A stretch of 46,325 nucleotides of DNA, taken from positions 1 through 46,325 of the forward strand of contig JANYGI010000096.1 of assembly GCA_025362495.1 (NCBI GenBank). The letters run 5' to 3'. Position 1 is the first letter of the stretch, and each line of letters opens with the position of its first letter. The notes beneath the pieces are model-generated. The model saw only the letters and a program-made list of their open reading frames with translations. It had not been told where the DNA came from and did not search any database. Of the stretch, positions 5,266-39,500 are shown piece after piece. The DNA is from Byssovorax sp. GTDB lineage: Bacteria > Myxococcota_A > Polyangia > Polyangiales > Polyangiaceae. A program made the translations under genes and the position numbers.

Positions 5266-6228
5266 ATGAAGCGCGAAGCCGCCGACTACGAAGCGCTGGT
5301 GGGCGACGTCCACGATCTCCGCGCGTTCGCGCTCGCCGTCGACCTGCGATCGTTCACCGCCACCGCGAAGCTGATGGGCGAGAGCAAGGCCACGGTGAGC
5401 CGGCGGATCGCGCGGCTGGAGGCGGCCCTCGGCGTGTCGCTGCTCCGCCGCACGCCGCGCGCCGTCGTGCCCACCGACGACGGCGTGGCCTACCGCGTCC
5501 GCGTCGCCGAGATCCTGGAGCTGCTCGGCGACGCCAACGCCGCGGTCCTCAACGCGCACGCGGCGCCGTCGGGGCAGCTCCGCATCACCGCGCCGCCGGG
5601 CTTCGAGGGCGTCCTCGCCGCGCCGATCGCGCAGTTCTCCCGCGAGTTTCCCCGGGTCCTGGTGAGCGCGCTCATCACCGATCGCTTCGTCGATCTCGAG
5701 GCCGAGCACGTCGACGTCGCGCTGCGCGCCGCGACCAGGCTGCCCGACTCCGCGCTGGTGGCGCACAAGCTCCTCGAGTTCGAGCTGATCACCGTCGCGT
5801 CGCCCGCGTACGTGAAGAAGCACGGGACGCCGCGGCGCGCCGAGGATCTCGCGGGCCACAGGGTCGTGCAGCTCGGCCTCGGCGGCGCGGCGTCGACGCT
5901 GGTGCTGCGCAAGGCCGACGGCAGCGGCGAGCCCACGACGGTGCGCCTCTCGTACGTGATCGCCGCGACCGACGTCGGCTTCGCCAAGGAGCTCGTGGTC
6001 GCCGACGCGGGCATCGCCGTCCTCCCGCGCCTCGTCGCGCAGCGCGATCTCGACGAGGGCCGGCTCGTGCACCTGCTCCGGCCGTACGTGATGCCGGGCG
6101 CCGCGCTCTACCTCCTGCACCGCGCCGGGCGCTTCTTGCCGCCGAAGGTCCGCGCCTTCCACGAGCTGATCGCGCGCGAGCTCACCACGCGATGCACGAA
6201 GTACCCGAAGCCCCGCGCCGGGGCGTGA
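5266..6228 (+). CDS. LysR-family transcriptional regulator
   Basis: The 320-residue protein has the usual LysR layout. A winged helix-turn-helix lies at about residues 17-77 (DLRAFALAVDLRSFTATAKLM, then ATVSRRIARLEAALGVSLLRR), followed by a linker helix and a two-lobe effector-binding domain beginning near QLRITAPPGF. The SxATVSRRIARLE pattern resembles the CrgA/DmlR-like subgroup. The yceI gene begins 174 bp downstream on the same strand, and a symmetrical T-N11-A site lies between them, so it probably controls yceI. It is not divergent from its likely target, which is less usual for the family. The effector is unknown. Confidence 0.9.
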   Translation: MKREAADYEALVGDVHDLRAFALAVDLRSFTATAKLMGESKATVSRRIARLEAALGVSLLRRTPRAVVPTDDGVAYRVRVAEILELLGDANAAVLNAHAAPSGQLRITAPPGFEGVLAAPIAQFSREFPRVLVSALITDRFVDLEAEHVDVALRAATRLPDSALVAHKLLEFELITVASPAYVKKHGTPRRAEDLAGHRVVQLGLGGAASTLVLRKADGSGEPTTVRLSYVIAATDVGFAKELVVADAGIAVLPRLVAQRDLDEGRLVHLLRPYVMPGAALYLLHRAGRFLPPKVRAFHELIARELTTRCTKYPKPRAGA

Positions 6229-6258
6229 TCCGGGCGCGAACCGGCGCCCGATCCACCC

Positions 6259-6275
6259 GTTGCAGATCCTGCAAC
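6259..6275 (+). promoter_or_regulatory. LysR-type box between the lysR-like gene and yceI
   Basis: GTTGCAG and CTGCAAC form a perfect 7-bp inverted repeat around ATC. T6261 and A6273 satisfy the T-N11-A rule for LysR regulator sites. It begins 30 bp after the regulator's stop codon and ends 127 bp before the yceI start, a sensible place for an activator site. A weaker inverted pair, GTTTCA (6281-6286) and TGAAAC (6310-6315), follows. Assignment to the upstream regulator is an inference. Confidence 0.55.
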
Positions 6276-6402
6276 ACAGTGTTTCATTCCGGTGCATTGC
6301 GCCGCCAGGTGAAACGACACAACTTCCGGCCTCGCCCCCGTTCACGGCACCGTTCAACGCCTGGAGCGCCTCTCCACAGCGCCCGGCGACAGAGGTATTC
6401 TC

Positions 6403-6951
6403 ATGTCCTGGCAACTCGATACCGTTCACAGCCATGTCGGTTTCTCGGTCAAGCACCTCATGGTGGCGACCGCGCGCGGCACGTTCAAGACCTACACCGG
6501 CTCGGTCCAGCTCGACCAGAAAGACTTCACGAAGTCGGTGTTCCAGGGCGAGATCGACGTCGCCAGCATCGACACCGGCAACGCCGACCGCGACAACCAC
6601 CTTCGCAACAACGACTTCTTCGACGTCGCCAACCACCCCAAGATCACCTTCAAGAGCACCAGCATCGAGCACAAGTCGGAGGGCGACTACGTCGTCCACG
6701 GCGACCTCACCATCCGCGGCGTGACCAGGCCCGTCGCGCTCGAGGTCGAGTACACCGGCACCGCGAAGAGCCTCTACGGCCACCACGTGGCGGGCTTCAC
6801 CGTCCGCGGGACGATCAACCGCAAGGACTTCGGCGTGAGCTTCAACGCCCCGCTCGAGACCGGCGGCATCGCCCTCGGCGAGAAGGTCAAGCTCGAGCTC
6901 GACATCGAGGCCATCGAGCACGCCGATCAGCCGGCTGCTGCCGCGGTCTGA
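6403..6951 (+). CDS. YceI family lipocalin-like protein
   Basis: The 182-residue protein matches the YceI fold over its whole length. It has the N-terminal WQLDTVHSHVGFSVKHLMV, the central ADRDNHLRNNDFFDVANHPKITF segment and the C-terminal RKDFGVSFNAPLETGG-(I/V)-ALGEKV motif. YceI proteins are beta-barrels that bind isoprenoid-type lipids such as polyprenyl quinones. Many are periplasmic, but this one has no signal peptide and should be cytoplasmic. The start is supported by AGAGG at 6391-6395, 7 bases before the ATG. Control by the preceding LysR protein through the box at 6259-6275 is likely. The physiological role of this family is still poorly defined. Confidence 0.93.
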   Translation: MSWQLDTVHSHVGFSVKHLMVATARGTFKTYTGSVQLDQKDFTKSVFQGEIDVASIDTGNADRDNHLRNNDFFDVANHPKITFKSTSIEHKSEGDYVVHGDLTIRGVTRPVALEVEYTGTAKSLYGHHVAGFTVRGTINRKDFGVSFNAPLETGGIALGEKVKLELDIEAIEHADQPAAAAV

Positions 6952-6969
6952 TTCACACGGCGGGGGCAG

Positions 6970-9780
6970 TCAGCGATCGTCGTCGTCGCGCCCCCGCTCC
7001 CCGCGCTTGCGCGCTTCGAGCCGGGTCTGGACCTCGTTCTCGAGGCGCGGCGGCAACACCTGATACTGCTTCCCCGCCAGCCACCGCTCCACCTGCTCGT
7101 CGAGCCCTTGCTGCGCGTCGACCTCGCCGAGATCCCACGAGTCGGTGAGCCGCTTCTCGGCCGGGGTCGCCTCCATGCCGCAGGCGAGCGGGTGAGTCCG
7201 CTTCTCGCGGGTGTACGGCGTGTAATCGGGCGTCGAGCTGAAGGCGTCGAGCGGGAGGGCGGCGTCGGCCACCTCTCGATTGGGGTACGGTAAGGCCATC
7301 ACGTGCGCCAGCAGCTTGTGAATGCTGGAGACGTCGATGTGCGTATGGGACATGTACCCGCGCTTCACCCACGGAGAGGCCATCATCACCACCGTGCGGT
7401 GGTAGTCGACCGACTCCGATCCTTGCGCCGGATCGTCCTCGGTGACGATCACCAGCGAGCTCTGCCAGATCGGGCTGTGCGAGATGGCGTCGATCAGGAT
7501 CCCCGTGGCCTCGTCGTTGACGGCGAACATGGTCTGGGGCGAAGGGTTGCTGGGCGAGACGCCGAGGGTGTGATCGTTCGGCAGCGTCAGGTACACGACC
7601 GGGTTGATGTCGCAGACGACGCGGACGCGCCCCGCCACGTAGCAGGCCTTCTCGACGTCGGGATACGCGATGCTCTGCACGGGGCCGCCGGGATAGTGCG
7701 AGTCGATGGGGTTCGTCCCGGCCGGGGGGTTCCTGGGTAACCCGACGATCTCGCCGAGGATGTCGTAAGGCACGTTGTTGTTGCCGAGCCAGTCGAAGAG
7801 CGAGCCCTCGCCGGGGCGCCCCAGCTCGTTGACGCCGCCCGAGTCGGCGTCGGTGCGCAGGCTGCGGCCGTACCCCGTCACCGGCCATTCGCGCTCGTTG
7901 AAGTCGTCGGTGCGCCCGTGGGTCGTCCAGAGGTGGCCTTGCGTCGAGATGAAGGCCGGCGTGTAGAAGTTGTCCGAGGTCGCGAACGTCCTCGCCAGCT
8001 TGCGGAAGTTGGTCCAGATCGCGTCCATCTGCGGAGGCGGCATCAACGTGCCTTCGGGGTTGCCCTTCCCCGCAGCGAAGTCCCCGAGCAGAGCGTCGTA
8101 GCTCTTGTTTTCGCGGACGACGATGAACACGTGATCGATCACCGGAGAGCGCTTGCCGGTGTTGGTCGCGGGGATGGGGAAGTCGTCCACGCCGGGAGGA
8201 CAGGTGATCGTCGGGTAGCCCGGGCGCGCGCCGATACGGTTGTTGGCGAGCACCGTCTTGTCGCCGGCCACGAGATCGGCCGTCGTGGGCACGGGGACGC
8301 GCTGGAGGCCGCCGTGAAGGAGGTTGTAGTCGCCGTCGATCGAGGCGCCGGTCCCGCGGCCCATCAGGCTGCTGATCACCACCGCTCCGTCGGGCATGGC
8401 CACCACGCCCGAGGGCCACCACTGGGTCGGCAGGCGGCCGGCGGGCAGGATCGTCGGCGGATCCTTGGTCAGATCCACGTCGTAGGCCCCGACCGCGTTG
8501 ACGCCGGCCTGGGCCACGTAAAGGCGCTTCGCCACGGGATCGTAGGTGAGGCTCGACGGTTCGAGGCCCGGCAATCCCTCGCTCGGATCGACGGGGATGG
8601 ACTTCACCGTGCCAGCGACGCGATCGAGGAGAGAGAGCGTGTCGCCGAGATCGTTGCCGACCACCATCCAGCGGCCGTCGAGGAACGCCACGCCCTCGGG
8701 ATCCTTCTCGACCTGGAAGGTGCGGGCGATCTTCGGGGCCGCCGGGCTGGTCACGTCGACCTCGTTGACGACGTGATCCGCCCACTGAGGCACGTAGACG
8801 CGGCTCGTGGTGACGTCGCTCGGATCGGTGTAGATACCGTAGCTCTCGGGCTGCCCCAGCGTGACCTGCCCGAGGATCGCCCCGTACTTCGGCCCGCCCG
8901 CGGTGATGTCGGCGACGAGCAGGCGCTTGTCGCGGACGCCGGAGATGAAGAGTCGCTTCCCGTCCTGGCTCACCGCCACGCCGGAGACATAGACCTCGTC
9001 GCCGCCCTGCGTCTCGGGGGGGATCTCGATGGAACCCGGGTTGTCGCGGGTGAGCGCGCCGGTCGCGACGTCGAGCTTCAAGGCCTGGACATGCCCGAGC
9101 GAGGTGGCCACGAAGACCCGGTCCGGCGCCGAGAACGCGATACCCTGGTTGAGGGCCTCGGGGCTCTGGAAGTTGACTTGCCCCTTGATCGCGACCGCAG
9201 GCCCCTTGTCGATCAGGGTCACGTCGACGGCGCGGACGATGTGATCGCCGTACCCGGTGTCGACGGTGAGAACCAGAGTCGTCCCCGGCACGGCGACGAC
9301 GTTGCTGGTCATGCTGCGAGGATCGGTGAACTCGAGCTCGGCGCCGGCGGGCGTCATCCGGCGGCCGCCGGGCATCACCAGCACCTTCGGATCCCCGGGA
9401 TCGACGCCGGCGTACTTCAGCGCGTCGCCGGTCGGCGCGCTCGCCGTGCATTTCCCCGGCGTGGGCGCCGGGAAGGTGCCTGTGTACGCCGCGCAGGCGG
9501 CGAGGTGCGGTATCGATTTCCAGTCGCGCGCGCTCGGGCACTCGTACGGTGCCGTCGCCTCGGCGCACGGAGCGCCGCTGCAATCGTAGGCGCACGATGC
9601 CGGGGCGACGGCCAGATCGTAGGGATCGACGCCGGATCCGCCGGTCCCGCTCGACGACGACGACGCCCCCGACGTTGACCCCGTGGCCGCCGAGCCTCCA
9701 TCGCCGCCGCAGCCCGTGAACGGGAGCGCGAGGAGCGCGATCGAGGACGAGAGACCGAGGAGAAGTGTGGCTCTGCGCAT
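6970..9780 (-). CDS. Beta-propeller/phosphoesterase-family lipoprotein
   Basis: This 936-residue protein starts with a lipoprotein signal ending at FTGC and a Ser/Gly/Thr linker typical of polyangial surface lipoproteins. Residues of about 110-530 form YncE-like beta-propeller repeats, for example VSGVAVSQDGKRLFISG and LEPSSLTYDPVAKRLYVAQ. The C-terminal part is a phosphoesterase of the acid phosphatase/phospholipase C superfamily (alkaline-phosphatase fold). It shows VIDHVFIVVRENKSYDALLGD around E557, and later VIVTEDDP and SHTHIDVSSIHKLL. Such fusions are annotated as bifunctional YncE/alkaline phosphatase family proteins. The substrate is unknown; a phosphate ester outside the cytoplasm is likely. 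The gene converges on yceI and is divergent from holB. Confidence 0.85.
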   Translation of the reverse strand: MRRATLLLGLSSSIALLALPFTGCGGDGGSAATGSTSGASSSSSGTGGSGVDPYDLAVAPASCAYDCSGAPCAEATAPYECPSARDWKSIPHLAACAAYTGTFPAPTPGKCTASAPTGDALKYAGVDPGDPKVLVMPGGRRMTPAGAELEFTDPRSMTSNVVAVPGTTLVLTVDTGYGDHIVRAVDVTLIDKGPAVAIKGQVNFQSPEALNQGIAFSAPDRVFVATSLGHVQALKLDVATGALTRDNPGSIEIPPETQGGDEVYVSGVAVSQDGKRLFISGVRDKRLLVADITAGGPKYGAILGQVTLGQPESYGIYTDPSDVTTSRVYVPQWADHVVNEVDVTSPAAPKIARTFQVEKDPEGVAFLDGRWMVVGNDLGDTLSLLDRVAGTVKSIPVDPSEGLPGLEPSSLTYDPVAKRLYVAQAGVNAVGAYDVDLTKDPPTILPAGRLPTQWWPSGVVAMPDGAVVISSLMGRGTGASIDGDYNLLHGGLQRVPVPTTADLVAGDKTVLANNRIGARPGYPTITCPPGVDDFPIPATNTGKRSPVIDHVFIVVRENKSYDALLGDFAAGKGNPEGTLMPPPQMDAIWTNFRKLARTFATSDNFYTPAFISTQGHLWTTHGRTDDFNEREWPVTGYGRSLRTDADSGGVNELGRPGEGSLFDWLGNNNVPYDILGEIVGLPRNPPAGTNPIDSHYPGGPVQSIAYPDVEKACYVAGRVRVVCDINPVVYLTLPNDHTLGVSPSNPSPQTMFAVNDEATGILIDAISHSPIWQSSLVIVTEDDPAQGSESVDYHRTVVMMASPWVKRGYMSHTHIDVSSIHKLLAHVMALPYPNREVADAALPLDAFSSTPDYTPYTREKRTHPLACGMEATPAEKRLTDSWDLGEVDAQQGLDEQVERWLAGKQYQVLPPRLENEVQTRLEARKRGERGRDDDDR

Positions 9781-9860
9781 AGCAGCGCCGAATGTACCGG
9801 AAGACCGGATCGTCGGTGCAGGCTATCGCAGCTCCGGCGCGAGCATGCTACGCAGCCGCC

Positions 9861-10856
9861 GTGCCCTTCAATCACATCCGCGGGCAAGCGACGGCGGTGG
9901 CCACGCTGGAGACGGCTCTCCGCGGCAATCGCGTCCACCACGCGTACCGCTTCGAGGGCTCCGACGGCACGGGCAAAGAGCTCGCGGCCTTCGCGCTGGC
10001 GCAGGCTCTGGTGTGCAACGCGGGCGACGTGCTCGGCTGCGGCCGCTGCGACGCCTGCCGCCGCGCGGTGACGTTCTCGGACGAGCGCCCGCGCTCGCCG
10101 CACCACCCCGACGTGATGATCATCGAGCGCGCGTTCTACCCGCCGGAGACGTTCACCCCGCCGAAGAACGAGACGCAGCAGATCTCGATCGAGCAGATCC
10201 GGACGATCGTGCTCGCCCACGCGGCCTACCCCGCGCACGAAGGGCGGGCGCGCGTGTTCATCGTCCGCCGCGCGGAAGAGCTGAGCATCGGCGCCGCCAA
10301 CGCGCTCCTGAAGACGCTGGAAGAGCCGCGCAACGGCACGCACTTCATCCTGCTGACCGCGCGGCCCGATCGCCTGCTCAACACCATCCGATCGCGGACG
10401 CTGCCGGTGCGCTTCGCCCCGCTGCCCGACGAGGTGGTGCGCTCCGTCCTCCGCGCCCGCGGCATCCCGGAAGAGCGCCACGATCTCGCCGTCGAGCTCG
10501 CCGCGGGCAGCGCCTCGCTCGCGCTCGAGCTGGTCGACGAGGAGCGCACCGTGGCCCGCGACGCCTTCGTCTCCGAGGCGCTCGCCGCCGTGAGCGCGCC
10601 CAACCTCGGCGCCGCCGTCGCGTTCGGCGAGTCGCGCGAAAAGGACAAGGATCAGCTCAAGGACGATCTGCGCGCCCTCGCCGCCTCGCTGGCGCGCGAG
10701 GCGCGGCAGTGCGTCGACACGGCCCCTCGGCAGGCGGGCGTGGCCGCGAAGCGCTACGAGGCCGTGGCCAGGGCCGTGGTGAACCTGGATCGCAACGCGT
10801 CGGTGCCGCTGACGATGATCGCGATGATCCAGGACATGCGCGAGACGCTGCGATAG
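9861..10856 (+). CDS. holB: DNA polymerase III subunit delta'
   Basis: Delta' is part of the clamp loader that opens the sliding clamp on DNA. The GTG at 9861 gives a protein of 331 residues beginning with PFNHIRGQ, the normal start of the AAA+ domain; the upstream ATG at 9792 would add a meaningless extension. Seen are a P-loop GSDGTGKE (K39), a cysteine cluster CxxCxxC after a further Cys that should bind zinc, the ISIEQIR segment, and the AANALLKTLEEPRNGTHFIL-type motif shared by DnaX and HolB. Unlike many delta' proteins it keeps an intact P-loop lysine. Some family members are named DnaX-like, but length and start fit delta'. Confidence 0.88.
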   Translation: MPFNHIRGQATAVATLETALRGNRVHHAYRFEGSDGTGKELAAFALAQALVCNAGDVLGCGRCDACRRAVTFSDERPRSPHHPDVMIIERAFYPPETFTPPKNETQQISIEQIRTIVLAHAAYPAHEGRARVFIVRRAEELSIGAANALLKTLEEPRNGTHFILLTARPDRLLNTIRSRTLPVRFAPLPDEVVRSVLRARGIPEERHDLAVELAAGSASLALELVDEERTVARDAFVSEALAAVSAPNLGAAVAFGESREKDKDQLKDDLRALAASLAREARQCVDTAPRQAGVAAKRYEAVARAVVNLDRNASVPLTMIAMIQDMRETLR

Positions 10857-10873
10857 GCGCGCGGCCGCAAGGG

Positions 10874-10979
10874 TGTCCCGGAAGGGCGCCCCGCTGCGCC
10901 AGAAGGTCGCCCCCCTTGTCCCAGAAGCGCGACCCGCCGCGCCAGAAGGCCGCCCCGCCGCGCCAAGGGCACGTCCCGA
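10874..10979. repeat. Array of five degenerate 21-bp direct repeats
   Basis: Five units of 21 bp start at 10874, 10895, 10917, 10938 and 10959, with one extra T at 10916. They share a core of the type CGCCAGAAGGYCGCCCCGC. The array fills the gap between holB and the kinase remnant. The period is a multiple of three and the + strand frame is open, but no plausible start or protein supports coding. It could affect transcript ends of both converging genes. Confidence 0.6.
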
Positions 10980-10980
10980 C

Positions 10981-12045
10981 TCAGTAAATGCCTTCGTGCT
11001 TCTTCGCCGTGGGAGGCGGGGGCGCTACGACGGGAGGCGGTCGCGTCGAGGGAGGCCGCGGAGCGCTGGTGGCGACGGTGCCTCTGGCGCTCACGAGAGG
11101 CGCTGGGCGGGGCGCCGCTGGCAAAGCGCTCTCCACCGTGACCACGGCGTCCACCGTGGGATCGGGGACGACGCTGGGCGCCGCCGCGACGCTGGCCGCG
11201 CTCGACGGCGCCGGCTGCGCGATCTGGCTCCGGCCCGGCTCGGTGGCCTTCTGCTCCGATCGATCGCGGAGGGCGAAGAACGCCCCGGCGCCGCCGAGGC
11301 CGAGCAAACCCACCACGAGCGCCAGAGTCACCACGGGACCGATTGGCCCGCTCGCCGCTCGCGCGGGGCTCCCCGGCAGCGGCGGGAGAGAGGATATCGC
11401 CGCCGCGTTGCCCGTCCACGCCGTGGGGTAAGTGACCGCGCTGAGATCGCCGGGGCGCGGTGGCATGGACGAGAGCGGCGCCAGCGGGAGCTGGGCCGAG
11501 GCCGAGGCGAAGCTCGGCGTGTTCATCGCCCCTGCGAAGCCCGGCGCGACGAGGGCGGCGCCCGGCTCGGACAGGGGCTCTGCCAGACTTACGGTGCGAT
11601 TGACTGGCTTGAAGACCGGCGAGATTGACGCCGACGGCAGCGGCGTTTCGGGGGCGGGCAGCAGCGTGGTATCGAGCGCGAGGCGCAGCGCCTCGACCAG
11701 CTCTTTCATGCTCTGGAAGCGCTGCTCCGGCTCTCGCGCCATGGCCCGCGTCCACCAGGCGTCGAAGCCCGGCGGGACCGGCGCCACCATCGAGGGCACG
11801 GGCAGCGGATCGACCATGATCTTCATCAGCAGATCGCCCAGCACCTCGGCCCTGAAGGGGAGCTGGCCAGTCAGGCACCGATAGGCAATCACGCCGACGG
11901 CCCAGAGATCCGAGCGGTGGTCGAGGTTTGTGTTCCCGCGCCCCTGCTCCGGGCTCATGTAGCTGGGAGTCCCCAGCATCTCTCCCGTGATGGTGTTCGG
12001 ATCGACGCCCGGACTGACGTCCTTGGCGACGCGCGCGAGGCTCGA
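10981..12045 (-). pseudogene. 5'-truncated Ser/Thr protein kinase gene
   Basis: Reading from the 3' end, the frame encodes the second half of a Hanks-type kinase: LGTPSYMSPEQ, DHRSDLWAVGVIAYRCLTGQLPF and EPEQRFQSMKEL, then a Pro/Ser-rich linker, one membrane helix (LALVVGLLGLGGAGAFFAL) and an Ala/Pro tail. It closely resembles the intact kinase at 21953. The first ATG, at 11979, lies in the activation loop. Kinase-like residues (LARVAKDVSPG..TGE) continue upstream of it to about 12045, so homology runs past any possible start. The P-loop, catalytic Lys, HRD and DFG are absent, and the neighbouring gene occupies the place where they should be. A deletion between about 12040 and 12082 removed the N-lobe. 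Any product would not be a kinase. Confidence 0.75.
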
Positions 12046-28111: not shown

Positions 28112-29923
28112 GTGCCCACCCCGCTGCCGCACCTCCGCACGACGATGATCCAGGCGTTCGCCCGGACCATCGTGGACGAATCGCGCCCGGGGCCCGCGTC
28201 GGAGTCGCGTCGGCCGCGCCTCGAGCTCGCGGACTCGATCGCGCCGCCGTCGGTAATCGTGCTGCCCGGCACGGGTGATCTCGTCGGCGAGCACTACCGG
28301 CTCGTGCGCTTGCTCGGCCAGGGCATGTTCGGCAAGGTCTACGTCGCGCAGCGCGAAGACGTCCCCGAGCACCAGGCCGCGCTGAAGATCTTGCCGCGCT
28401 CGCTCTACGCGGGCCGCAACGTCGAGCGCGAGCTGGTGATGCTCGCGACGGTCGGCCACCCCAACGTCGTCCAGCTCAAGGATCACGGGACCACGCGCGA
28501 CTACGTGTGGCTGACGATGCCTGTTTACCAGGGCGAGACGCTCGCCGAGCGCCTGCTGCGCGGGCCGCTCGGCCTGCGCGAGGCGCACGACATCTTCCGC
28601 CCGATCGCCCACGGGCTCGAGGCGCTGCACGCGGCCGGCCTGCGGCACCAGGACGTGAAGCCCGAGAACATTTACCTCGCCGTGTTCGCGGGGCGCGTTC
28701 ACCCGATCCTGCTCGACCTCGGCGTGGCCGCCGAGAAGGACGCGACGTTCGTCGCGGGGACGGCGCTCTACGCCGCGCCGGAGCAGGTCGCCGTGCTGAG
28801 CGGCGCGTACCCGGGGATCATCCCGCTGAGCGAGAAGATGGACACCTACGGCGTGGCCACGACGCTGCTGACGGCGCTGGTCGGCCCCGAGCTCTTCCCC
28901 GGCGAGACGGCCACCGATCGCAACGAGCTCGCCGCGGCGCACGAGACGCGCGCCACCGAGCCTTTCGCCGCGAGCGCGCTGCCCGATCTCCAGGGCCCGG
29001 CGCGCGCCGCGATCCAGAAGACGCTCGCCGGATGGATGGCGCTCGAGCCCGACGATCGCCCCACGATGAAGGAGCTCGGCGAGGAGCTCGACGTCTTGCT
29101 CGAGCCCGAGCGCGAGGCCGCGCGCGCCGAGGATCGCCGCAGGAACCGCCAGAAGACGACGATCATGCGCTTCAAGGTCACGCTCGGCGCGATGCTGCTC
29201 ATCGGCCTCGGCGCGGCGGGCGTGATGTTCTCGAAGCGAGAGACGCTGCGGGTCGCGAGCGAGCTCGAGAAGGCCAAGAAGATGCGGTCCGAGTCCTTCG
29301 ACAAGCTCGAGACCTGCGCCGCTTCGCACAAGATGGCGACGATGGCCGCGACCACGTGCAGCGCCGCGCGCGACGCCGATCGCGCGATGTACAAGCAGGC
29401 CCTCGACGAGTTCACGAAGACGGGCTCCGTCGCCGACGCCGACCGGGCGCGCCAGCTCCAGAGCTACGCGACGCGGATCAAGGCCTGCGAAGACATCGCC
29501 GCGTCGGAGAAGCGGACCTGCGGCGAGGAGCAGGTCCGACGCGACATCGACAACGCGCGGCAGAAAGGCGCCCTCGCAGCCCTCACGGAGGAGCGCGACG
29601 AGGAGCAGGCCGCCGTCGCGAAGGCCGCGCTCGAGCTCGCCGAGGCCAGGAAGAAGCTGGAGATCCTCGCCGCCGAGAAGGCCGCCCTGACCGAGGAGCG
29701 CGACGCGCTCAAGGCCGCCGCCGCGAAGGCCGCCGCCGCCCTGGCCGCCGCGCCGCACCCCGCTGCCGTAGCGCCTGGAGCGCCCGCCCCGATCGCCGCC
29801 GGCAGCGTCGCGCCGCCCGTCGACACCGCCGTCGCCGCCGCGCTCCCACCAGCCGCGTTGCCCCCCGCGCCGCCGCCGGCAGCCCTGCCGCCGGCCGCGC
29901 CGACGCCGACGCCGACGCCGTGA
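28112..29923 (+). CDS. Atypical (non-RD, DLG) transmembrane Ser/Thr kinase with coiled-coil ectodomain
   Basis: The GTG at 28112 gives 603 residues; an ATG at 28145 is an alternative. A kinase fold spans about 60-330, with a glycine loop LGQGMFGKVY and catalytic K92 in AALKILP. The catalytic loop reads HQDVKPENI (H179, D181) instead of HRD, and the metal-binding motif reads DLG (D202) instead of DFG. The activation loop is short, ending ALYAAPEQ. The catalytic Lys and both Asp are kept, so activity remains possible without the usual activation-loop control. A membrane helix (VTLGAMLLIGLGAAGVMF) is followed by about 170 residues of Glu/Lys/Ala-rich coiled coil with four cysteines, then an Ala/Pro tail. 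It is divergent from the AI-2E-family gene. Confidence 0.85.
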   Translation: MPTPLPHLRTTMIQAFARTIVDESRPGPASESRRPRLELADSIAPPSVIVLPGTGDLVGEHYRLVRLLGQGMFGKVYVAQREDVPEHQAALKILPRSLYAGRNVERELVMLATVGHPNVVQLKDHGTTRDYVWLTMPVYQGETLAERLLRGPLGLREAHDIFRPIAHGLEALHAAGLRHQDVKPENIYLAVFAGRVHPILLDLGVAAEKDATFVAGTALYAAPEQVAVLSGAYPGIIPLSEKMDTYGVATTLLTALVGPELFPGETATDRNELAAAHETRATEPFAASALPDLQGPARAAIQKTLAGWMALEPDDRPTMKELGEELDVLLEPEREAARAEDRRRNRQKTTIMRFKVTLGAMLLIGLGAAGVMFSKRETLRVASELEKAKKMRSESFDKLETCAASHKMATMAATTCSAARDADRAMYKQALDEFTKTGSVADADRARQLQSYATRIKACEDIAASEKRTCGEEQVRRDIDNARQKGALAALTEERDEEQAAVAKAALELAEARKKLEILAAEKAALTEERDALKAAAAKAAAALAAAPHPAAVAPGAPAPIAAGSVAPPVDTAVAAALPPAALPPAPPPAALPPAAPTPTPTP

Positions 29924-30885: not shown

Positions 30886-31269
30886 ATGAGCTATCTGCGT
30901 ACGGATTCGGGTCGCCTCTTCACCATGGCCGCGGGCATCGCGCTCACCGGCGGCGGCATCGCCACCCTGGTCGGCGGTTCGGGCGCCGTGCCGATCATGT
31001 GCTTCTCGCTGCTCCTCACGATCCTCACGAGCCTCTTCGCCGCGGGCATCAGCTCGAACACCTCGACAGGCTCGGTGATCACGGTGATCGTCGCCGGCCC
31101 GTTCGCGTTCTTTCTCTACGTCCTCGGCCTCGGCCTCGCGATCGAGCACGCGCCGCAGGCCGGCTACGCTTTCGGGATCCTCGGCGCCCTCGCCCTCGCG
31201 CGCGTTGCGTTCGTCAACGACGCGAGGCCGTCGACCGCGCGCGAACAGCACCCCATTCATGCTCACTGA
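30886..31269 (+). CDS. Small unknown membrane protein
   Basis: The ATG at 30886 is preceded by GCGGAG at a proper distance. The 127-residue protein is almost entirely hydrophobic. About four membrane helices (LFTMAAGIALTGGGIATLVGG, IMCFSLLLTILTSLFAAGI, SVITVIVAGPFAFFLYVLGLGLAI, YAFGILGALALARVAFV) end in a short hydrophilic tail with two His. I recognise no family. It lies upstream of the DUF362-polyferredoxin-cytochrome genes on the same strand with a 44-bp gap, so it could be their first cistron. Confidence 0.6.
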   Translation: MSYLRTDSGRLFTMAAGIALTGGGIATLVGGSGAVPIMCFSLLLTILTSLFAAGISSNTSTGSVITVIVAGPFAFFLYVLGLGLAIEHAPQAGYAFGILGALALARVAFVNDARPSTAREQHPIHAH

Positions 31270-31313
31270 CCTGGCCGCTTGAGACCGCGCGCCTGACGGG
31301 CTAACCTGCGCCC

Positions 31314-32291
31314 GTGCCGTTACGTGATCTGACCCGCCGCGAGCTGATCCAGCGCCTTGGCGCGGCGGGCCTCGTGCTCGGGAGCGCCGGGGCCGTCGCC
31401 CGGGCCCGCTGGGACCATGGCGCCGGGGCCGGTCCGGCGGCGATCGATCGCGCGATCACCCGGGATTTCCGCCTCTCCAGCGCTCCTGGCGACTTGCCCG
31501 AGCTCGTCGTCGCCAAGAACGACACCGATCCTGCCGCCCTCGTCCGCAAGGCCGTCGAGGCCCTCGGCGGGATGAAGCGCTTCATCAGCAATCAAGACAT
31601 CGTCGTCGTCAAACCCAACATCGGCTGGGATCGCACGCCGATCCACGCGGCCAACACCAACCCCAGGGTCGTCGCCGAGGTGGTGCGTCTCTGCTACGAC
31701 GCCGGGGCCAAGCACGTCGTCGTCACCGATGCTTCGTGCAACGAGCCCAATCGGTGCTTCCAGCGCTCAGGCATCTGGAAGGCCGCGTACGACATGGGGG
31801 CCGAGGTCATCCTCCCGGCCACGCACCGATTCCGCACCATGCGCCTCAAGGGCGAGGTCCTGGACGAGTGGCTCGTTTACACGCCCCTCGTCAACGCCGA
31901 CAAGGTCATCAACGTACCCATCGCCAAGCACCACAACCTGGCGAAGTACACCGCGGCGATGAAGAACTGGTATGGATCGCTCGGCGGCCGCAGGAACCGG
32001 CTCCACCAGAACATCGACGTATCCATCGCCGATCTGGCCCAGTTCATCCAGCCCACGCTCACCATCGTCGACGCCACCCGGGTGCTGATGCGCAACGGGC
32101 CCCAGGGCGGCAACGTGGCCGACGCGAAGGACATGCACACGGTGATCGCCACGACCGATCAGGTCGCCGCCGACGCCTATGGCTGCCAGCTCATCGGGCG
32201 CACCGCCGACGAGATACCCTATCTGAAGATGGGGCACGAGCGCGGGATCGGCACGATGCACTGGCAGACTCTGCGCTTCAAAGAGGTCTGA
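31314..32291 (+). CDS. DUF362-domain protein with Tat-like signal
   Basis: The GTG at 31314 gives 325 residues. The N-terminus, LTRRELIQRLGAAGLVLGSAGAVA, reads as a twin-arginine signal with likely cleavage near ARA, so the protein should fold in the cytoplasm and be exported with its cofactor. The rest is a DUF362 domain: VVVKPNIGWDR, NTNPRVVAEVVRLCYDAGAKHVVVTDASCNEPNRCF, INVPIAKHHNLAKYTAAMKNWYGS and DQVAADAYGCQLIG. Five cysteines could hold an iron-sulfur cluster, but the typical CxxCxxC ferredoxin motif fused to some DUF362 proteins is absent. The stop lies 3 bp before the polyferredoxin start. The biochemical role of DUF362 is not established. Confidence 0.87.
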   Translation: MPLRDLTRRELIQRLGAAGLVLGSAGAVARARWDHGAGAGPAAIDRAITRDFRLSSAPGDLPELVVAKNDTDPAALVRKAVEALGGMKRFISNQDIVVVKPNIGWDRTPIHAANTNPRVVAEVVRLCYDAGAKHVVVTDASCNEPNRCFQRSGIWKAAYDMGAEVILPATHRFRTMRLKGEVLDEWLVYTPLVNADKVINVPIAKHHNLAKYTAAMKNWYGSLGGRRNRLHQNIDVSIADLAQFIQPTLTIVDATRVLMRNGPQGGNVADAKDMHTVIATTDQVAADAYGCQLIGRTADEIPYLKMGHERGIGTMHWQTLRFKEV

Positions 32292-32294
32292 GCG

Positions 32295-34112
32295 GTGGCC
32301 TCGACGACGCCCGATCCAACGATCGCCTCGCCCCGCGCTCCGAAGGCCCCGCCGAAGACGAGCCAAAAACCGGGCCTGCTCGCGCGGCTCTTTCGGGCCA
32401 AGGCCCGCTCCGGCTCGGGGCTCCCTGCGCGCAAGATGATCCAGGTCCTGGTCTGGGCGCGCCGGCTCATCCAGGGTGGCACCTTTGCCCTGTTCTCGTG
32501 GCTGCTGTTCCACACGGCGTTTCGTGGCTCGTTCGCCTCGGCCGACACCCGCGTTCGCCTGCCGCTCCCGGTGGAAGGGTTCCTGCTGGCCGACCCGTTC
32601 GTCGCGGCGATGACGCTGCTCTCGACGCACACCGTCTATCGAGGGCTCCTGTGGTCGGTTGGCCTGCTCGCGCTCACGCTGGTCGTCGGCCGGGTGTTCT
32701 GCGGATGGATCTGCCCCTTTGGAACCCTCCACCATCTCTTCGGGTGGATCTTCCCGTCGCGCTACGGCAAGGGGAACAAGCGCGTCGAGTCCAACAAGAC
32801 GTACGCGCGCCAGCGGGTGAAGTATTACCTGCTCTACTTCTTCCTCGCGGCGGCCGTCACCGGGAGCGCCATCGGCGGGATCTTCGATCCGATCTGCATC
32901 GCTGTCCGCGCCATCGGCCTCGCGGTGATCCCGGCGGCGCAGTACGTGGCCACGGCGATCAACGCGCTGGTCGGCCTCACCGGGGTTCGCTCGCTCCAGG
33001 TCGCCTCGGACAGCGGACAGGATTTCCTCGCTGGCACCGTCTGGCAAGAGAAGCAGTTCTATTTCCACCAGACCTGGCTCGTCGGATCGCTGTTCATCGC
33101 GATCCTGTTCATGAACCGCTTCATCCCGCGCTTCTGGTGCCGGGTGCTCTGCCCGCTCGGCGCGTTCCTCGGGCTCTTCGCGCGGTTCGCCCTCTTCGGG
33201 ATGGAGAAGGATCACAGCAAATGCACCGACTGCAACCTGTGCCTCGTCCACTGCCAGGGCGCCGACTCGCCCCAGGGCGGCGTGAAGTGGCGCCAGGACG
33301 AGTGCCACATGTGCATGAACTGCGAGAACGCCTGTCCGGAAGACGTGATCAAGTTCCGCTTCTTGCCCAATCGGAAGAGCGCGATCACCACGCCTGACAC
33401 CGGTCGTCGCACGGCGATCGCCACGGCCGCCGCGGGCGCCGCCCTGCTCCCCGTCACCCGCGTGGCCGACGTGATCGACGCCAACTACGATCATCGCGTC
33501 ATCCGGCCGCCGGGCTCGGTCCCCGAGAAAGAGTTCCTCGAGCGCTGCATCCGCTGCGCCGAGTGCATGAAGGTCTGCCCCAACAACGCGCTTCATCCGG
33601 CCTTCTTCGAGTCCGGGATCGAGGGGATGTGGACTCCGATCCTCATCCCGCGGATCGGCTACTGCGAGCACTCGTGCGTGCTCTGCGGGCAGGTCTGCCC
33701 GACGGGCGCCATCCAGAAGATCACCGAGGAGCAAAAGCTGGGCGTCGGGCAGAAGGCCATCTCGATCGGGACGGCGTTTTACGACCTCGGGCGCTGCCTG
33801 CCGTGGTCGATGGCCACGCCCTGCATCGTCTGCGAAGAGTTCTGCCCGACGTCGCCCAAGGCCATCTGGGTCGAAGAGGCCGACGTCCCGCGGCGCCTCC
33901 CGATGGCCTCGGCCGACGGCGGCGATCCGAAGATGGAGACTGTCCACGTGCAGCGGCCGCACGTGGATCCGTCGCTGTGCATCGGCTGCGGCGCCTGCGA
34001 GAAGGTCTGTCCCGTGCAAGACAAGCCCGCTGTCTACGTGACGAGCGTGGGTGAGTCGCGGTCCAAGACCAACGTAATTTTGCTCGAGAACACCGACTAC
34101 AACAAGAGCTGA
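32295..34112 (+). CDS. NapH/NapG-like fused membrane polyferredoxin
   Basis: The GTG at 32295 is 9 bases after an AAAGAGG element. The 605-residue protein joins two units. Residues of about 50-365 resemble NapH/MauN/NosR-type proteins: several membrane helices, the paired motifs FCGWICPFG (C136) and FWCRVLCPLG (C282), then ferredoxin motifs starting at C310 (CTDCNLCLVHC) and C337 (CHMCMNCENACP). At 370-385 a twin-Arg plus hydrophobic stretch (TGRRTAIATAAAGAALLP) looks like an internal Tat signal. After it come further clusters at C418, C457, about C500 and C562, as in NapG. It should take electrons from quinol and pass them to periplasmic iron-sulfur clusters. The neighbours suggest the pentaheme cytochrome as acceptor. 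Confidence 0.87.
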   Translation: MASTTPDPTIASPRAPKAPPKTSQKPGLLARLFRAKARSGSGLPARKMIQVLVWARRLIQGGTFALFSWLLFHTAFRGSFASADTRVRLPLPVEGFLLADPFVAAMTLLSTHTVYRGLLWSVGLLALTLVVGRVFCGWICPFGTLHHLFGWIFPSRYGKGNKRVESNKTYARQRVKYYLLYFFLAAAVTGSAIGGIFDPICIAVRAIGLAVIPAAQYVATAINALVGLTGVRSLQVASDSGQDFLAGTVWQEKQFYFHQTWLVGSLFIAILFMNRFIPRFWCRVLCPLGAFLGLFARFALFGMEKDHSKCTDCNLCLVHCQGADSPQGGVKWRQDECHMCMNCENACPEDVIKFRFLPNRKSAITTPDTGRRTAIATAAAGAALLPVTRVADVIDANYDHRVIRPPGSVPEKEFLERCIRCAECMKVCPNNALHPAFFESGIEGMWTPILIPRIGYCEHSCVLCGQVCPTGAIQKITEEQKLGVGQKAISIGTAFYDLGRCLPWSMATPCIVCEEFCPTSPKAIWVEEADVPRRLPMASADGGDPKMETVHVQRPHVDPSLCIGCGACEKVCPVQDKPAVYVTSVGESRSKTNVILLENTDYNKS

Positions 34113-34167
34113 CGGGGCGCCGCACTTTCCGCGTGGCGAGGGCGCATGGATAGGATAGCATCGACGG

Positions 34168-35958
34168 ATGCGCTCCCCTGCCCGCTCCGGCCTGCTCGCG
34201 ATTCTGCTCGTCCTCGCCGCCGAGGCGGGCGCGCTGGCCAACACCGGATCGCTCAAAGGCACCAAGCCGGGCGACCTGGCGTTCCCCGATTTCACCGACG
34301 CCGACACCTGCGCTTCGTGCCACGGCGGCGGGATCAACGGCGATACTTCATTCCTCCCCTCGGACACCTGGTCCGGGACGATGATGGCCAACGCGGCCCG
34401 CGATCCGGTGTTCTTCGCGGCCCTGGCCGTCGCCAACCAGGACAAGCCGGGCGTGGGCACGTATTGCCTTCGTTGCCACTCGCCCACAGCGTTCGTGTCC
34501 GGCCACGCGACGCCGCCGGACGGGAGCGCCTTCGACGACATCGACAGGCAGGGTATCGGCTGCGAGACCTGCCACCGCGCCACCCAGAGCACCGGCGTCG
34601 ACGCTCCGTACATCCTCTCGGACGCCCAGCTCGTCTTCACCGAGGACACGGGCAAGCACGGCCCCTACGAAGACACGCAATCTCCGGCGCACACCTCGGT
34701 CGTCGAGCAGTCGATGGCCAGCGCCAATTTCTGCGGCCAGTGCCACCAGGTGACGAACCCCGACGTGCACCTGCGCGACGCGATGGGCAAGGACACCGGC
34801 CTCGAGTTCCCCCTCGATACGACCTACGAAGAGTGGCAGAGCAGCGACTTCGGCAAATCTGGCCAGAAGACCTGTCAAGACTGCCACATGCCGAAGAAGG
34901 CCGGGATGCAGCCCGTGACCAAGCTCTTCGACTCGCCGCTCCACGCGGATCCCCGCGAGCACGGCTTCGTGGGCGGCAATCACTGGGGCATCCAGGCGGT
35001 GATGGCGGCGAACCCGGATCGCGCCACGGCCAACGCAGCGTCGTTCGCGCAGGCGCTGCAAGGCACCCTCGACAACCTCGCCGCGGGGGTCAAGCTCACG
35101 CTGAGCGGCGCTCCGAAGCTGGTGACGCCCGGCGGCGCGTTCCAGGTCAAGGTGAAGGTCGAGAACCTGACTGGCCACAAATTCCCGACGGGCTACGCCG
35201 AGACGCGGCGCGCGTGGATCGGTGTGACGTTCGTCGGCGCCGACAAGAAGGAGACGCCGCTCGCCGGCGGGTACGATCTCGCGACCGGGAAAATCCAGGC
35301 CATTCCGGCCGTCCACGTGTACAAAGCCGAGCACGGATCGTGGGATGGCTCGAAGGGAGTGGCCGAGTCGCACCTGGCGCTCCACGACATGATCATCTCG
35401 GATACGCGGATCCCGCCGGCCGGCTTCAAGGCCTCGAAGACGACGACGCCGACGAGCGAGATCGATTTCAGCGACGGAAACGGCGGCTACAAGAGCTCGG
35501 ACGAGGTGACTCTCGATCTCACCTGGCCGGCCGACGCGGCGGGGCAAGTGACGCTCTCGGCGCGGCTCTACTATCAGTCGATGACACGGGAGTATGTCGA
35601 GTTCCTGAAGTCGGCCAATACCACGAACACCAAGGGGGATGATCTCGCGACGGTGTTCCAGGCGACCGGCGAGGGGGCTCCGCTGGTGATCGCCAGGGCC
35701 GAGGCGACGCTGGGACAGGCCATGACGACGAGCACGGGAGTCGGCGGCGCGGGCGGCAGCGGAGCGGCGTCGAGTGGAAGTGGGGCGACGAGCACGGGAG
35801 TCGGCGGCGCGGGCGGGACCGGCGGAGCGGCGTCGAGCGGTGGCGCGAGCAGCGGTTGCGGGTGCAGCGACGCGGGCGCGCCGGCGTCGGCGGCGGGAGC
35901 GATGGTGGGCATGATGGTGCTGGCGATGGCCGGGGCGCGGCGGCGGAAGAGGGCGTGA
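34168..35958 (+). CDS. Pentaheme cytochrome c with MYXO-CTERM-like anchor
   Basis: The 596-residue protein has a signal peptide ending near GALA. Five CxxCH heme sites start at C48, C100, C132, C189 and C236. Several extra His residues in between could be the sixth ligands. After the heme part is a beta domain with NLTGHKFPTGYAETRRAWIGV, a motif common in geobacterial and myxobacterial multiheme cytochromes. A Gly/Ser/Ala linker made of 60-bp DNA repeats leads to CGCSDAG, a hydrophobic helix and RRRKRA, the form of the MYXO-CTERM sorting signal that anchors proteins at the outer surface. It lies 55 bp after the polyferredoxin gene and is the likely terminal electron carrier of that set. Confidence 0.9.
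   Translation: MRSPARSGLLAILLVLAAEAGALANTGSLKGTKPGDLAFPDFTDADTCASCHGGGINGDTSFLPSDTWSGTMMANAARDPVFFAALAVANQDKPGVGTYCLRCHSPTAFVSGHATPPDGSAFDDIDRQGIGCETCHRATQSTGVDAPYILSDAQLVFTEDTGKHGPYEDTQSPAHTSVVEQSMASANFCGQCHQVTNPDVHLRDAMGKDTGLEFPLDTTYEEWQSSDFGKSGQKTCQDCHMPKKAGMQPVTKLFDSPLHADPREHGFVGGNHWGIQAVMAANPDRATANAASFAQALQGTLDNLAAGVKLTLSGAPKLVTPGGAFQVKVKVENLTGHKFPTGYAETRRAWIGVTFVGADKKETPLAGGYDLATGKIQAIPAVHVYKAEHGSWDGSKGVAESHLALHDMIISDTRIPPAGFKASKTTTPTSEIDFSDGNGGYKSSDEVTLDLTWPADAAGQVTLSARLYYQSMTREYVEFLKSANTTNTKGDDLATVFQATGEGAPLVIARAEATLGQAMTTSTGVGGAGGSGAASSGSGATSTGVGGAGGTGGAASSGGASSGCGCSDAGAPASAAGAMVGMMVLAMAGARRRKRA
35727..35846 (+). repeat. 60-bp tandem repeat in the cytochrome linker
   Basis: Two copies with a period of 60 bp (for example AGCACGGGAG at 35731 and at 35791) encode the Thr-Gly-Val-Gly-Gly-Ala-Gly linker. 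Copy number may vary between strains, changing only linker length. Confidence 0.7.
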
Positions 35959-37407: not shown

Positions 37408-38439
37408 ATGAACACGAGCCCGATCCACCACGCAACCAACGGTGTCGACGCGCACCTCGCGCCCGACCTGCTCGTTCGCATGCACGAGCTCATGCTCCAG
37501 ACGCGCCTCCTCGAAGAGCGACTGATCACGATGATCCGCCAGGGCGACGGCTATTTCTGGATCGGCGGGCCCGGCGAGGAGGCGTTCAACGTCCCGCTCG
37601 GCCTCCTGGTCAACAAGGGCGAGGGGCTCTCGCACGACTACTTGCACCTCCACTACCGATCGAGCGGCACGCTGCTCGCGCTCGGCGCCGAGCCGATCGA
37701 CTCGCTCCGCCAGATGAAGAGCGTGAAGACCGATCCCTACTCGGGAGGCCGCAATTTCGTGGGCCACTACTCGGCGCGCAAGTGGAACGTCGTGCCGATC
37801 TCGTCGCCGATCGAGGTCCAGTTCTCGATGGCGCCGGGCACCGCGATCGCCCAGAAGCGCGCGGGCGGGCGCGGCATCACCATCGTGCAAGGCGGCGACG
37901 CCGGCACGGCCGAGGGCGACTTCGCGACGTGCCTCATCTGGGCCTCGCGCCCCGGCAACGAGCTCCCGCTGCTGATGATCGTCACCAACAACAGTTACGG
38001 GATCTCCACCACGTACGGCACGCAGCACGGCGAGCCGCGCATCAGCGATCGCGGCAAGGCCTTCGGGATCAAGACGGCCACCATCGACGGCAACGATCCC
38101 GAGGTCTCGTACCGCGAGCTCCAGAAGGCGATGGAGTACGTGCGCACCGAGCGGAGGCCGTTCCTCCTCGAAGCCCACGTTTCCAGGCTCTACGGCCACT
38201 CGTCGTCGTCGGGCGCGAACTTCGTCGAGGACGAGGTCGACGGCCTCGCGCGCTTCGAGGCCAGGCTCGTCGAGCGGCGGATCCTCTCGCGCGCGACGCT
38301 CGACGACATGCGCACGCGCATGACCGCCGAGCTGCTCGCCGCCTACCAGAAGGTCCGCGAGGAGGCGCCGCCGGATCCGAGCAGCATCTGGGATCACGTG
38401 TTCGCCACCAAGAACGTGAATGACGGAGGAGCACGCTGA
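37408..38439 (+). CDS. 2-oxoacid dehydrogenase E1 component, alpha subunit
   Basis: The 343-residue subunit carries the thiamine diphosphate motif GDAGTAEGDF (D164) through N194/N195 in MIVTNNSYGIS. It also has the SHDYLHLHYRS segment and a phosphorylation-loop-like region YGHSSSSGANF. With the beta subunit encoded next it makes the E1 part of a pyruvate or branched-chain 2-oxoacid dehydrogenase, which decarboxylates the oxoacid and transfers the acyl group to an E2 lipoyl domain. The substrate class is uncertain; the sequence style is closer to the branched-chain or generic E1 alpha group than to AceE. ATG 37408 follows a 21-bp repeat array. The TGA overlaps the beta gene start. Confidence 0.9.
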   Translation: MNTSPIHHATNGVDAHLAPDLLVRMHELMLQTRLLEERLITMIRQGDGYFWIGGPGEEAFNVPLGLLVNKGEGLSHDYLHLHYRSSGTLLALGAEPIDSLRQMKSVKTDPYSGGRNFVGHYSARKWNVVPISSPIEVQFSMAPGTAIAQKRAGGRGITIVQGGDAGTAEGDFATCLIWASRPGNELPLLMIVTNNSYGISTTYGTQHGEPRISDRGKAFGIKTATIDGNDPEVSYRELQKAMEYVRTERRPFLLEAHVSRLYGHSSSSGANFVEDEVDGLARFEARLVERRILSRATLDDMRTRMTAELLAAYQKVREEAPPDPSSIWDHVFATKNVNDGGAR

Positions 38440-39500
38440 TGGCGACGATGGTGCAAGCGATCCGGATGGCCCTGCACGTGGGCGAGGAGCGCCTCGGCGT
38501 GACGGACATCCTCGGCGAGGACGTGGGCCCGCCGCTCGGTGGTGTGTTCACGGCGACGCAGGGCCTCCGCACCGCGTGGAACACGCCGCTCGACGAGCGG
38601 GGGATCATCGGCGCCGCGATGGGCCTCGCGCTCGCGGGGCAGCGGCCGATCGCCGAGATCCAGTTCTGCGACTACGTGTACAACACCATCGACTTGCTCA
38701 AGCTCGCGGGCGGCATGTGCTGGTCGTCGAACGGCGACTTCAACTGCCCGATGGTGATGATGACGCCCGTGGGATCCGGCATCCACGGCAGCCTCTATCA
38801 CTCGCACTCCTTCGACGCGACGGCGACGCATCTGCCCGGATGGAAGATCGTCATGCCCGCCACGCCGCGCGACGCCTACGGCCTGATGCTCTCGGCGATC
38901 GTCGATCCGAACCCGGTCATGTTCCTCGCGCCCAAGGCGCTGATGCGCGTGAAATCGCTGCCCGGCGAGGAGATCCCCGGCGAGCCCGGCGACGACAAGC
39001 AGCTCGCGAAGATGATCGACGCGCCCCTCGGCGATCGCAGCGCGTGGCGCCCGAGCTGGCCCGACACGCCTGATCTCTTCATCCCCTTCGGCGAGGCGAA
39101 GATCGTCCGCGCCGGCGAGACGGTCACCGTCGTGACCTACGGCCGCATGGTCATGGAGTGCGCGAAGGCCGCCGACGAGCTGCGCGCCGAGGGCATCACC
39201 GCCGAGGTTATCGATCTGCGATCGCTGCACCCCGTCGACTGGGCGACGATCAAGAAGAGCGTCCAGAAGACCAACCGCGTGCTCTACGTGAACGAGGAGA
39301 CCGAGGTCACCAACTTCGGCGAGCACCTGATCCGCCGCACCGTCGACGAGCTGTTCTACGAGCTGCACGCGCCGCCGAGGCTGCTCGCTGGCGCGTTCGT
39401 GCCCTACGTCGGCCTCGCGCCGAGCCTCGAGAGCGCCTCGGTCCCGCAGCGCGCGGGCATCGTGCAGGCGATCCGGGAGCTGGCGAAGCACCGGCCCTGA
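38439..39500 (+). CDS. 2-oxoacid dehydrogenase E1 component, beta subunit
   Basis: The 353-residue protein shares one base with the alpha stop codon (TGATG), so the subunits are made in step. It shows the transketolase-like beta features: LGEDVGPPLGGVFTATQGL, the IGAAMGLALAGQRPIAEIQFCDYVYNTIDLL region, VGSGIHGSLYHSHSFDATATHLPGWKIVMPATPRDAYGLM, and the C-terminal transketolase domain with VTVVTYGRMVMECAKAADEL and EVIDLRSLHPVDWATIKKSVQKTNRVLYVNEE. An insertion of about 40 residues (KSLPGEEIPGEPGDDKQLAKM) occurs before the C-terminal domain. Neither E2 nor E3 genes follow; the downstream gene is on the other strand. Confidence 0.92.
   Translation: MATMVQAIRMALHVGEERLGVTDILGEDVGPPLGGVFTATQGLRTAWNTPLDERGIIGAAMGLALAGQRPIAEIQFCDYVYNTIDLLKLAGGMCWSSNGDFNCPMVMMTPVGSGIHGSLYHSHSFDATATHLPGWKIVMPATPRDAYGLMLSAIVDPNPVMFLAPKALMRVKSLPGEEIPGEPGDDKQLAKMIDAPLGDRSAWRPSWPDTPDLFIPFGEAKIVRAGETVTVVTYGRMVMECAKAADELRAEGITAEVIDLRSLHPVDWATIKKSVQKTNRVLYVNEETEVTNFGEHLIRRTVDELFYELHAPPRLLAGAFVPYVGLAPSLESASVPQRAGIVQAIRELAKHRP

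Follow-up and report, generated by a model that had tools for sequence, protein, structure and literature searches.

We describe here a conserved pair of genes, encoding a DUF362 protein and a NapH-NapG-like polyferredoxin, in a 46,325-nucleotide contig of Byssovorax sp. (JANYGI010000096.1, assembly GCA_025362495.1; this whole stretch is called the window below). The pair most likely forms a quinone-linked periplasmic oxidoreductase, with the DUF362 protein as its catalytic subunit. More specifically, we propose a two-gene periplasmic redox pair in which the DUF362 protein would carry its cofactor in a pocket of the type that holds the nickel-pincer nucleotide (NPN) in the lactate racemase LarA, and would be wired through the polyferredoxin to quinone; we consider this reading about equally likely to be right or wrong. 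The conserved unit, which extends far beyond this strain, is the pair and not the trio with a downstream cytochrome that a first-pass annotation of the window had taken as the module. In the window the two genes of the pair are 3 bp apart:

31314..32291, + strand: DUF362 protein, 325 aa, GTG start, PF04015 at E 1.1e-50, predicted LarA-like fold
32295..34112, + strand: polyferredoxin, 605 aa, NapH-NapG fusion, Fer4_5 at E 3.5e-20 and further 4Fe-4S domains (Pfam)

DUF362 is a large, uncharacterised family, to which the window protein belongs with 172.9 bits in a Pfam scan against a curated cut-off of 24. Its N-terminus has RR at residues 8-9 with a weakly hydrophobic stretch after it, so that the first-pass description of a DUF362 protein of the twin-arginine translocation (Tat) type at the head of the set stands. 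The polyferredoxin was also correctly described: it has 29 Cys, and CGWICP at 136, CRVLCP at 282 and six further cysteine cluster regions were all found in the translation. A pentaheme cytochrome follows 55 bp downstream, and the three genes do lie on a single strand with the two short gaps that had been reported.

A scan of one-per-species genomes found 460 relatives of the polyferredoxin, the best 80 of which were kept as loci; their record titles include Myxococcales, Polyangiaceae, Sorangium, Polyangium, Minicystis, Labilithrix and “delta proteobacterium” metagenome-assembled genomes. These loci reach at least 5 kb downstream in 53 cases and at least 3 kb upstream in 64, contig ends cutting some of them. 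In 76 of the 80, a same-strand DUF362 match lies directly upstream of the polyferredoxin, with a gap between matches of -7 to 871 bp. The polyferredoxin is at a contig end in three of the remaining four (L037, L081 and L082), and DUF362 is truly absent in one (L043). In a separate set of 282 genomes of the phylum, searched at E 1e-60 for the polyferredoxin and E 1e-20 for this type of DUF362, the former was found in 45 genomes and the latter in 48. All 45 polyferredoxin genomes have a DUF362 match upstream within about 1 kb, this being a contig-cut piece in two (G066 and G232) and a cut end visible only in locus L119 in a third (G120). Among 22 sampled genomes of the window's own family, 21 have the polyferredoxin. 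The open frames of the pair overlap by 4 bases or abut in many loci, as judged from frames with unverified start codons. A hidden gene in the gap between DUF362 and polyferredoxin of other genomes was considered and rejected, the polyferredoxin's own frame extending into the gap at most loci. A record of Parabacteroides distasonis also holds the pair, six bases apart and with the domains confirmed, its DUF362 protein being 36% identical over 80%.

When all open frames of the window and of the 80 loci were compared with one another, no further general neighbour emerged. The other large frame clusters consist of frames antisense to the pair or shadowing it, and the commonest neighbour cluster beyond it, which contains the window's kinase, occurs in 25 of 81 sequences. 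A terminal reductase of the nap, nos or nrf kind was not seen as a conserved neighbour among the ten neighbours, rather than every neighbour, that were family-scanned; those that recur are DUF6599 and an aldo/keto reductase. The pair lies outside nap, nos and nrf as far as neighbours were examined. Of the three-gene order, the pair is conserved and the cytochrome is not, accompanying it in one of the 80 loci; that the genes might be neighbours only in this strain is nearly true of the cytochrome and clearly untrue of the pair.

DUF6599 (PF20244), the gene upstream of DUF362 in several distant families, is probably a third component of the system. It was found in 42 of the 45 polyferredoxin genomes as compared to 4 of the 237 others (counts uncorrected for kinship), and in 17 genomes from 7 families 21-808 bp separate its match from that of DUF362, DUF6599 being upstream. 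In the window genome this component would be encoded elsewhere, as the sole DUF6599 match falls on a different contig (G000:C52, L177:7978-9120, minus strand). A linkage of larC and DUF6599 over 15-19 kb in several family members was set aside as general synteny and is unused as evidence. Downstream of the pair, a Tat-type aldo/keto reductase is encoded in loci L112, L113 and L115. It directly follows the pair in two distant families:

L112:11480-12736: Tat-type aldo/keto reductase
L115:11051-12253: Tat-type aldo/keto reductase

Judged by its sequence, the polyferredoxin appears to be a fusion of the dual Sec-Tat NapH-NapG type. The NapH model covers residues 55-212 and the NapG model residues 369-584 of the one chain, both under their cut-offs (NapG, 81.9 against 269; NapH/MauN family, 76.5 against 213; NapH, 73.4 against 234), and the protein is therefore neither NapG nor NapH proper. 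Its halves recall the NapGH quinol dehydrogenase of periplasmic nitrate reductase, from which it differs in these low scores, in being a single fused chain and in that nap genes were unseen among its conserved neighbours. A twin arginine stands between the membrane half and the NapG-like half in 81 of 81 sequences (residues 371-372 in the window), and the stretch after it, 373-391, is weakly hydrophobic, with a Kyte-Doolittle value of 1.38 as compared to up to 2.05 elsewhere. Twenty-eight of the 29 Cys, together with R372 and R389, the latter near the end of that stretch, are invariant in 49 sequences. An AlphaFold model of the polyferredoxin had a mean pLDDT (predicted local distance difference test) of 54, too poor to show anything.

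This arrangement matches that of a polytopic polyferredoxin, itself a NapH-NapG fusion, which is described as needing Sec and Tat together (PMC5449189, eLife 2017). That protein, from delta proteobacterium MLMS-1, has a NapH-like membrane part with Fe-S motifs and NapG-like C-terminal clusters, and an internal twin arginine with a weakly hydrophobic fifth helix and then positive charge. The likeness is one of architecture, and a DUF362 partner is not named, under that name, in the main text of PMC5449189. Because of this match we take the NapG half of the window protein to be periplasmic, which would place it on the side of the membrane where exported DUF362 would be found.

With regard to DUF362 itself, an AlphaFold model made from 66 sequences, the window protein and its relatives, had a mean pLDDT of 86.4. 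Foldseek returned 18 matches at E <=0.001, all of them lactate/malate racemases and LarA-like enzymes. A second structure aligner gave Z 14.9-16.5 over 202-214 residues for 11 named LarA-type entries; an unnamed Thermotoga protein (4nar) followed at Z 14.6, and the next fold reached 5.5. The predicted fold agrees with Pfam, since clan CL0471 contains both DUF362 and LarA (PMC11770544, in which DUF362 serves as an outgroup of LarA). PDB sequence searches with DUF362 alone or with profile A1 found no LarA; the relationship emerged only by fold comparison and by profile-profile alignment.

K205, H207, K217 and N218 are invariant in 41 diverse DUF362 sequences, and H231 is kept in at least 90%. 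When the DUF362 profile was aligned with a profile made from 24 LarA homologues of the phylum (probability 86.8%, E 4.3e-6), His207 fell on the column of His174, Lys217 on that of Lys184, a nickel-pincer contact, and His231 on that of His200 of LarA, in numbering taken from an alignment with chain 6c1w. This alignment leans to the motif K-x-H-x9-K, by which 14 extra DUF362 frames were picked and cut; one made with no motif-based choice, at a probability of 12% and E 0.0024, placed H207 and K217 alike and shifted H231 by one column. In LarA, R75, K184 and H200 are given as NPN contacts and D72, H108, H174 and K298 as catalytic residues (PMC7583248). Close DUF362 sequences have K-x-H-x9-K followed by His in 40 of 41 cases and other ones in 24 of 28, where one of the four exceptions, on a Streptomyces plasmid, has Arg instead of the first Lys; H-x9-K occurs in 21 of 24 DUF362 frames of another set.

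The modelled likeness to LarA, a nickel-pincer-dependent enzyme, thus comprises the N-terminal domain with Z up to 16.5, equivalents of His174, Lys184 and His200, and the shared clan. DUF362 differs from LarA in its twin-arginine N-terminus and polyferredoxin operon, and neither Lar_N nor LarA_C matched in the Pfam scan of the window protein. The first-pass suggestion that DUF362 is a folded, cofactor-bearing partner is probably right. Absent from that annotation were the relationship to LarA, the twin arginine within the polyferredoxin, and DUF6599.

These features lead us to the following scheme. DUF362 would fold in the cytoplasm, take up its cofactor, NPN or a related one, in the pocket equivalent to the NPN site of LarA, and be exported folded by Tat; such export would fit loading of the cofactor in the cytoplasm. 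The polyferredoxin would sit in the inner membrane, where its NapH-like half could exchange electrons with the quinone pool, while the internal Tat signal would pull the NapG-like half across so that its [4Fe-4S] clusters face, and may dock with, DUF362 in the periplasm. A substrate hydride placed on, or taken from, the DUF362 cofactor would then pass as electrons through the clusters to or from quinone. In LarA, the NPN accepts a hydride from the substrate and then returns it. A LarA homologue that lacks the second catalytic His and has an iron-sulfur partner could presumably drain or supply this hydride as electrons instead.

That the cofactor is nickel-pincer is a testable hypothesis, for which the distribution of the cofactor-synthesis genes larB, larC and larE offers some guidance. 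LarC (PF01969) was found in 207 of the 282 genomes, Lar_N (PF09861) in 122 and DUF362 (PF04015) in 182, with LarC in 171 of these 182. Among the 160 genomes negative for Lar_N, DUF362 occurs in 71 of 90 LarC-positive and 6 of 70 LarC-negative genomes. In the window's class, 39 of 40 genomes with LarC have DUF362, as compared to 2 of 18 without LarC. In three families in which LarC is variable (f2, f5 and f11), DUF362 was found in 3 of 4 genomes with LarC and in 0 of 15 without (exact probability about 0.006). LarC is in 46 of the 48 genomes with this DUF362 type as compared to 161 of the 234 without it. The window genome has the cofactor genes, with larC on contig C195, larB adjacent to it (272.6 bits against a cut-off of 175) and larE on C176 (291 against 150). 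G187 stands alone among 11 f2 genomes in having LarC, and likewise in having DUF362, and it gave no Lar_N match; there the cofactor genes form one run with DUF362, and they are again near DUF362 on the Streptomyces plasmid:

L125 (G187:C33) 5548-11952, - strand: larB-larC-larE (all over cut-offs), then hopene-cyclase-C-like, twin-arginine DUF362 and RPE65-family (carotenoid-cleavage-like) genes, forming a single run
L130 (NZ_CP109481.1 33000-52000) 5275-13380: Streptomyces plasmid, larE-larB-larC with DUF362 within about 8 kb; PF04199 cyclase

As a control, the cyanobacterium Synechococcus elongatus has DUF362 and LarC with no Lar_N match. Approximately 15% of more than 1,000 genomes are reported to have larB, larC and larE without larA, many of them cyanobacteria, the cofactor's user being described there as unidentified (PMC11796402). 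We offer a bolder extension, possible in our view though we lean against it: DUF362 proteins may be the sought non-LarA users of NPN, and their Tat-exported branch may carry out net redox chemistry rather than racemisation, as a quinone-linked periplasmic nickel-pincer dehydrogenase or reductase.

Several observations weigh against a nickel-pincer cofactor in DUF362. The column of LarA His108 holds no conserved His in DUF362, which therefore lacks the pair of catalytic histidines, and the structural match ends at model residues 297-299 (up to about residue 259-286 in the LarA-type chains), so that LarA's C-terminal domain went unmatched in this comparison. Eleven DUF362 genomes of the phylum have no LarC match, and conversely 19 Lar_N-negative LarC genomes have no DUF362. 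LarC without DUF362 or Lar_N is also seen in the controls Corynebacterium glutamicum and Methanocaldococcus jannaschii, and two Embleya plasmids have larBCE with no nearby match to our DUF362 queries. Since Bacteroides ihuae, a further control, has DUF362 with no LarC match, and the paired DUF362 of Parabacteroides retains the motif, the pair may do without NPN made by LarC. The phylum-wide co-occurrence counts are uncorrected for kinship, and because genomes with this DUF362 type hold further DUF362 and often LarA copies, co-occurrence cannot single out this protein. PMC11796402, moreover, anticipates that the unidentified NPN-using protein folds differently from LarA.

We also note some features of the lar loci in their own right. 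One of the 19 genomes just mentioned, G149, has a larBCE cluster that may serve another, or a divergent, user of the cofactor. The nickel-pincer genes of L130 are perhaps within a secondary-metabolite cluster; its flanking frames are ones that we take to be isochorismate-synthase, 3-deoxy-D-arabino-heptulosonate 7-phosphate (DAHP)-synthase and non-ribosomal peptide synthetase (NRPS) genes. The window genome also encodes a LarA homologue, with Lar_N and LarA_C domains, some 2 kb from a DUF362 gene of a second type; a plasmid search with that DUF362 type found nothing. The corresponding positions are:

L129 (G149:C76) 8591-11267: larB-larC-larE cluster; no Lar_N or DUF362 match in this genome
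L127 (G000:C103) 2609-4057 and 6029-7375: second DUF362 type and LarA homologue of the window genome

Alternatively, the quinone-linked pair might be just as we propose with a different cofactor in the LarA-like pocket of DUF362 (some other metal, some other nucleotide or none at all), LarC tracking other DUF362 and LarA proteins of these genomes. The several DUF362 paralogues per genome, the LarC-free DUF362 of B. ihuae and the motif retained in the Parabacteroides pair would all suit this explanation, which we think unlikely, though a serious contender, given how widely K-x-H-x9-K and its following His are kept among close and other DUF362 sequences and how much commoner LarC is in genomes with this DUF362 type. 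The pair might instead be a device for maturation or reductive repair, rather than an enzyme, with DUF6599 or the Tat-type aldo/keto reductase, for example, as its periplasmic client. CcoG/RdxA-type proteins, which are thought to reduce copper, provide an analogy, and the CcoG model scored only 26 bits. The tracking of the pair by DUF6599, close upstream in 17 genomes, and the aldo/keto reductase after it in three loci can be understood in this way; we nevertheless regard it as improbable, as DUF362 keeps enzyme-like pocket residues and aldo/keto reductase neighbours occur at few loci.

The first-pass annotation had favoured a three-gene conduit, in which electrons from quinol would pass through the polyferredoxin and then DUF362, reach a pentaheme cytochrome anchored at the surface and go on to an outside acceptor. 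Within the window this is attractive: the cytochrome is on the same strand after a short gap, five CxxCH motifs were counted as annotated (at 48, 100, 132, 189 and 236), the N-terminus is hydrophobic, and the tail has a Ser/Gly-rich linker, a C-terminal hydrophobic stretch and then Arg/Lys. This layout is what had been called MYXO-CTERM-like; the score against TIGR03901, however, was 15.7 bits, below the cut-off of 20. The one other locus with the cytochrome near the pair is L008 of Minicystis rosea (polyferredoxin 84% identical), where a 434-residue open frame separates polyferredoxin from cytochrome. Four other family members (L090-L093) have orthologues of 52-56% identity, none of which has a polyferredoxin match in the surrounding 1.5 kb or so. 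A cytochrome match at E 1e-20 was found in 22 of 60 family genomes, mostly weak, as compared to the near-universal polyferredoxin of the sampled genomes. We thus class the cytochrome as a local neighbour, outside the conserved module; with it excluded, the route to the cell surface is left unsupported, and we hold the conduit to be very improbable. The cytochrome may still accept electrons locally. Its residues 121-245 resemble the ExtKL multiheme (seleno)cytochrome at 46.9 bits, against a cut-off of 250 bits, and it is not a member of that family.

Two further genes near the pair in the window are likewise local. The small hydrophobic protein, annotated as a four-helix protein and possible first cistron, does have four hydrophobic stretches but was not found next to the pair in other loci; it has no Pfam match and its best NCBIfam score is 16 bits against a cut-off of 219. 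The divergent gene annotated as a TlpA-like thiol lipoprotein is on the minus strand with WCGPC as described, but is merely weakly ResA-like (27.1 bits against 170). Neither it nor the small membrane protein had a match in any of the 80 loci. The neighbouring features are:

28112-29923: serine/threonine protein kinase, PF00069 at E 2.5e-30, Ala/Pro-rich C-terminus
29931..c.30659, - strand: ResA-like lipoprotein (thioredoxin-fold-like), divergent, WCGPC; neighbour only
30886..31269, + strand: small hydrophobic protein, four separate hydrophobic stretches, possible first cistron
34168..35958, + strand: pentaheme cytochrome c, predicted secreted, 596 aa, Cytochrome_C7 at E 3.5e-8, multiheme cytochrome domains (Pfam)
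37408-39500: 2-oxoacid dehydrogenase E1 alpha and beta subunit genes, E1_dh PF00676, transketolase-type PF02779 and PF02780

Novelty is relative to the open-access papers on DUF362 that our searches reached; two of the papers, PMC12423673 and PMC10892978, match on DUF3623 and not on DUF362. The link between DUF362 and the nickel-pincer genes deserves a test because genomes with larBCE and without larA are reported to lack an identified user of the cofactor, and the Duet co-expression system described in the same article (PMC11796402) could be used for this purpose. DUF362 merits testing as a user of NPN on account of its LarA-like predicted fold, its kept contact residues and its tracking of LarC in Lar_N-negative genomes. 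If the paired form proved true, nickel-pincer chemistry would be coupled to the respiratory chain, which, to our knowledge, would be the first known coupling of this kind.

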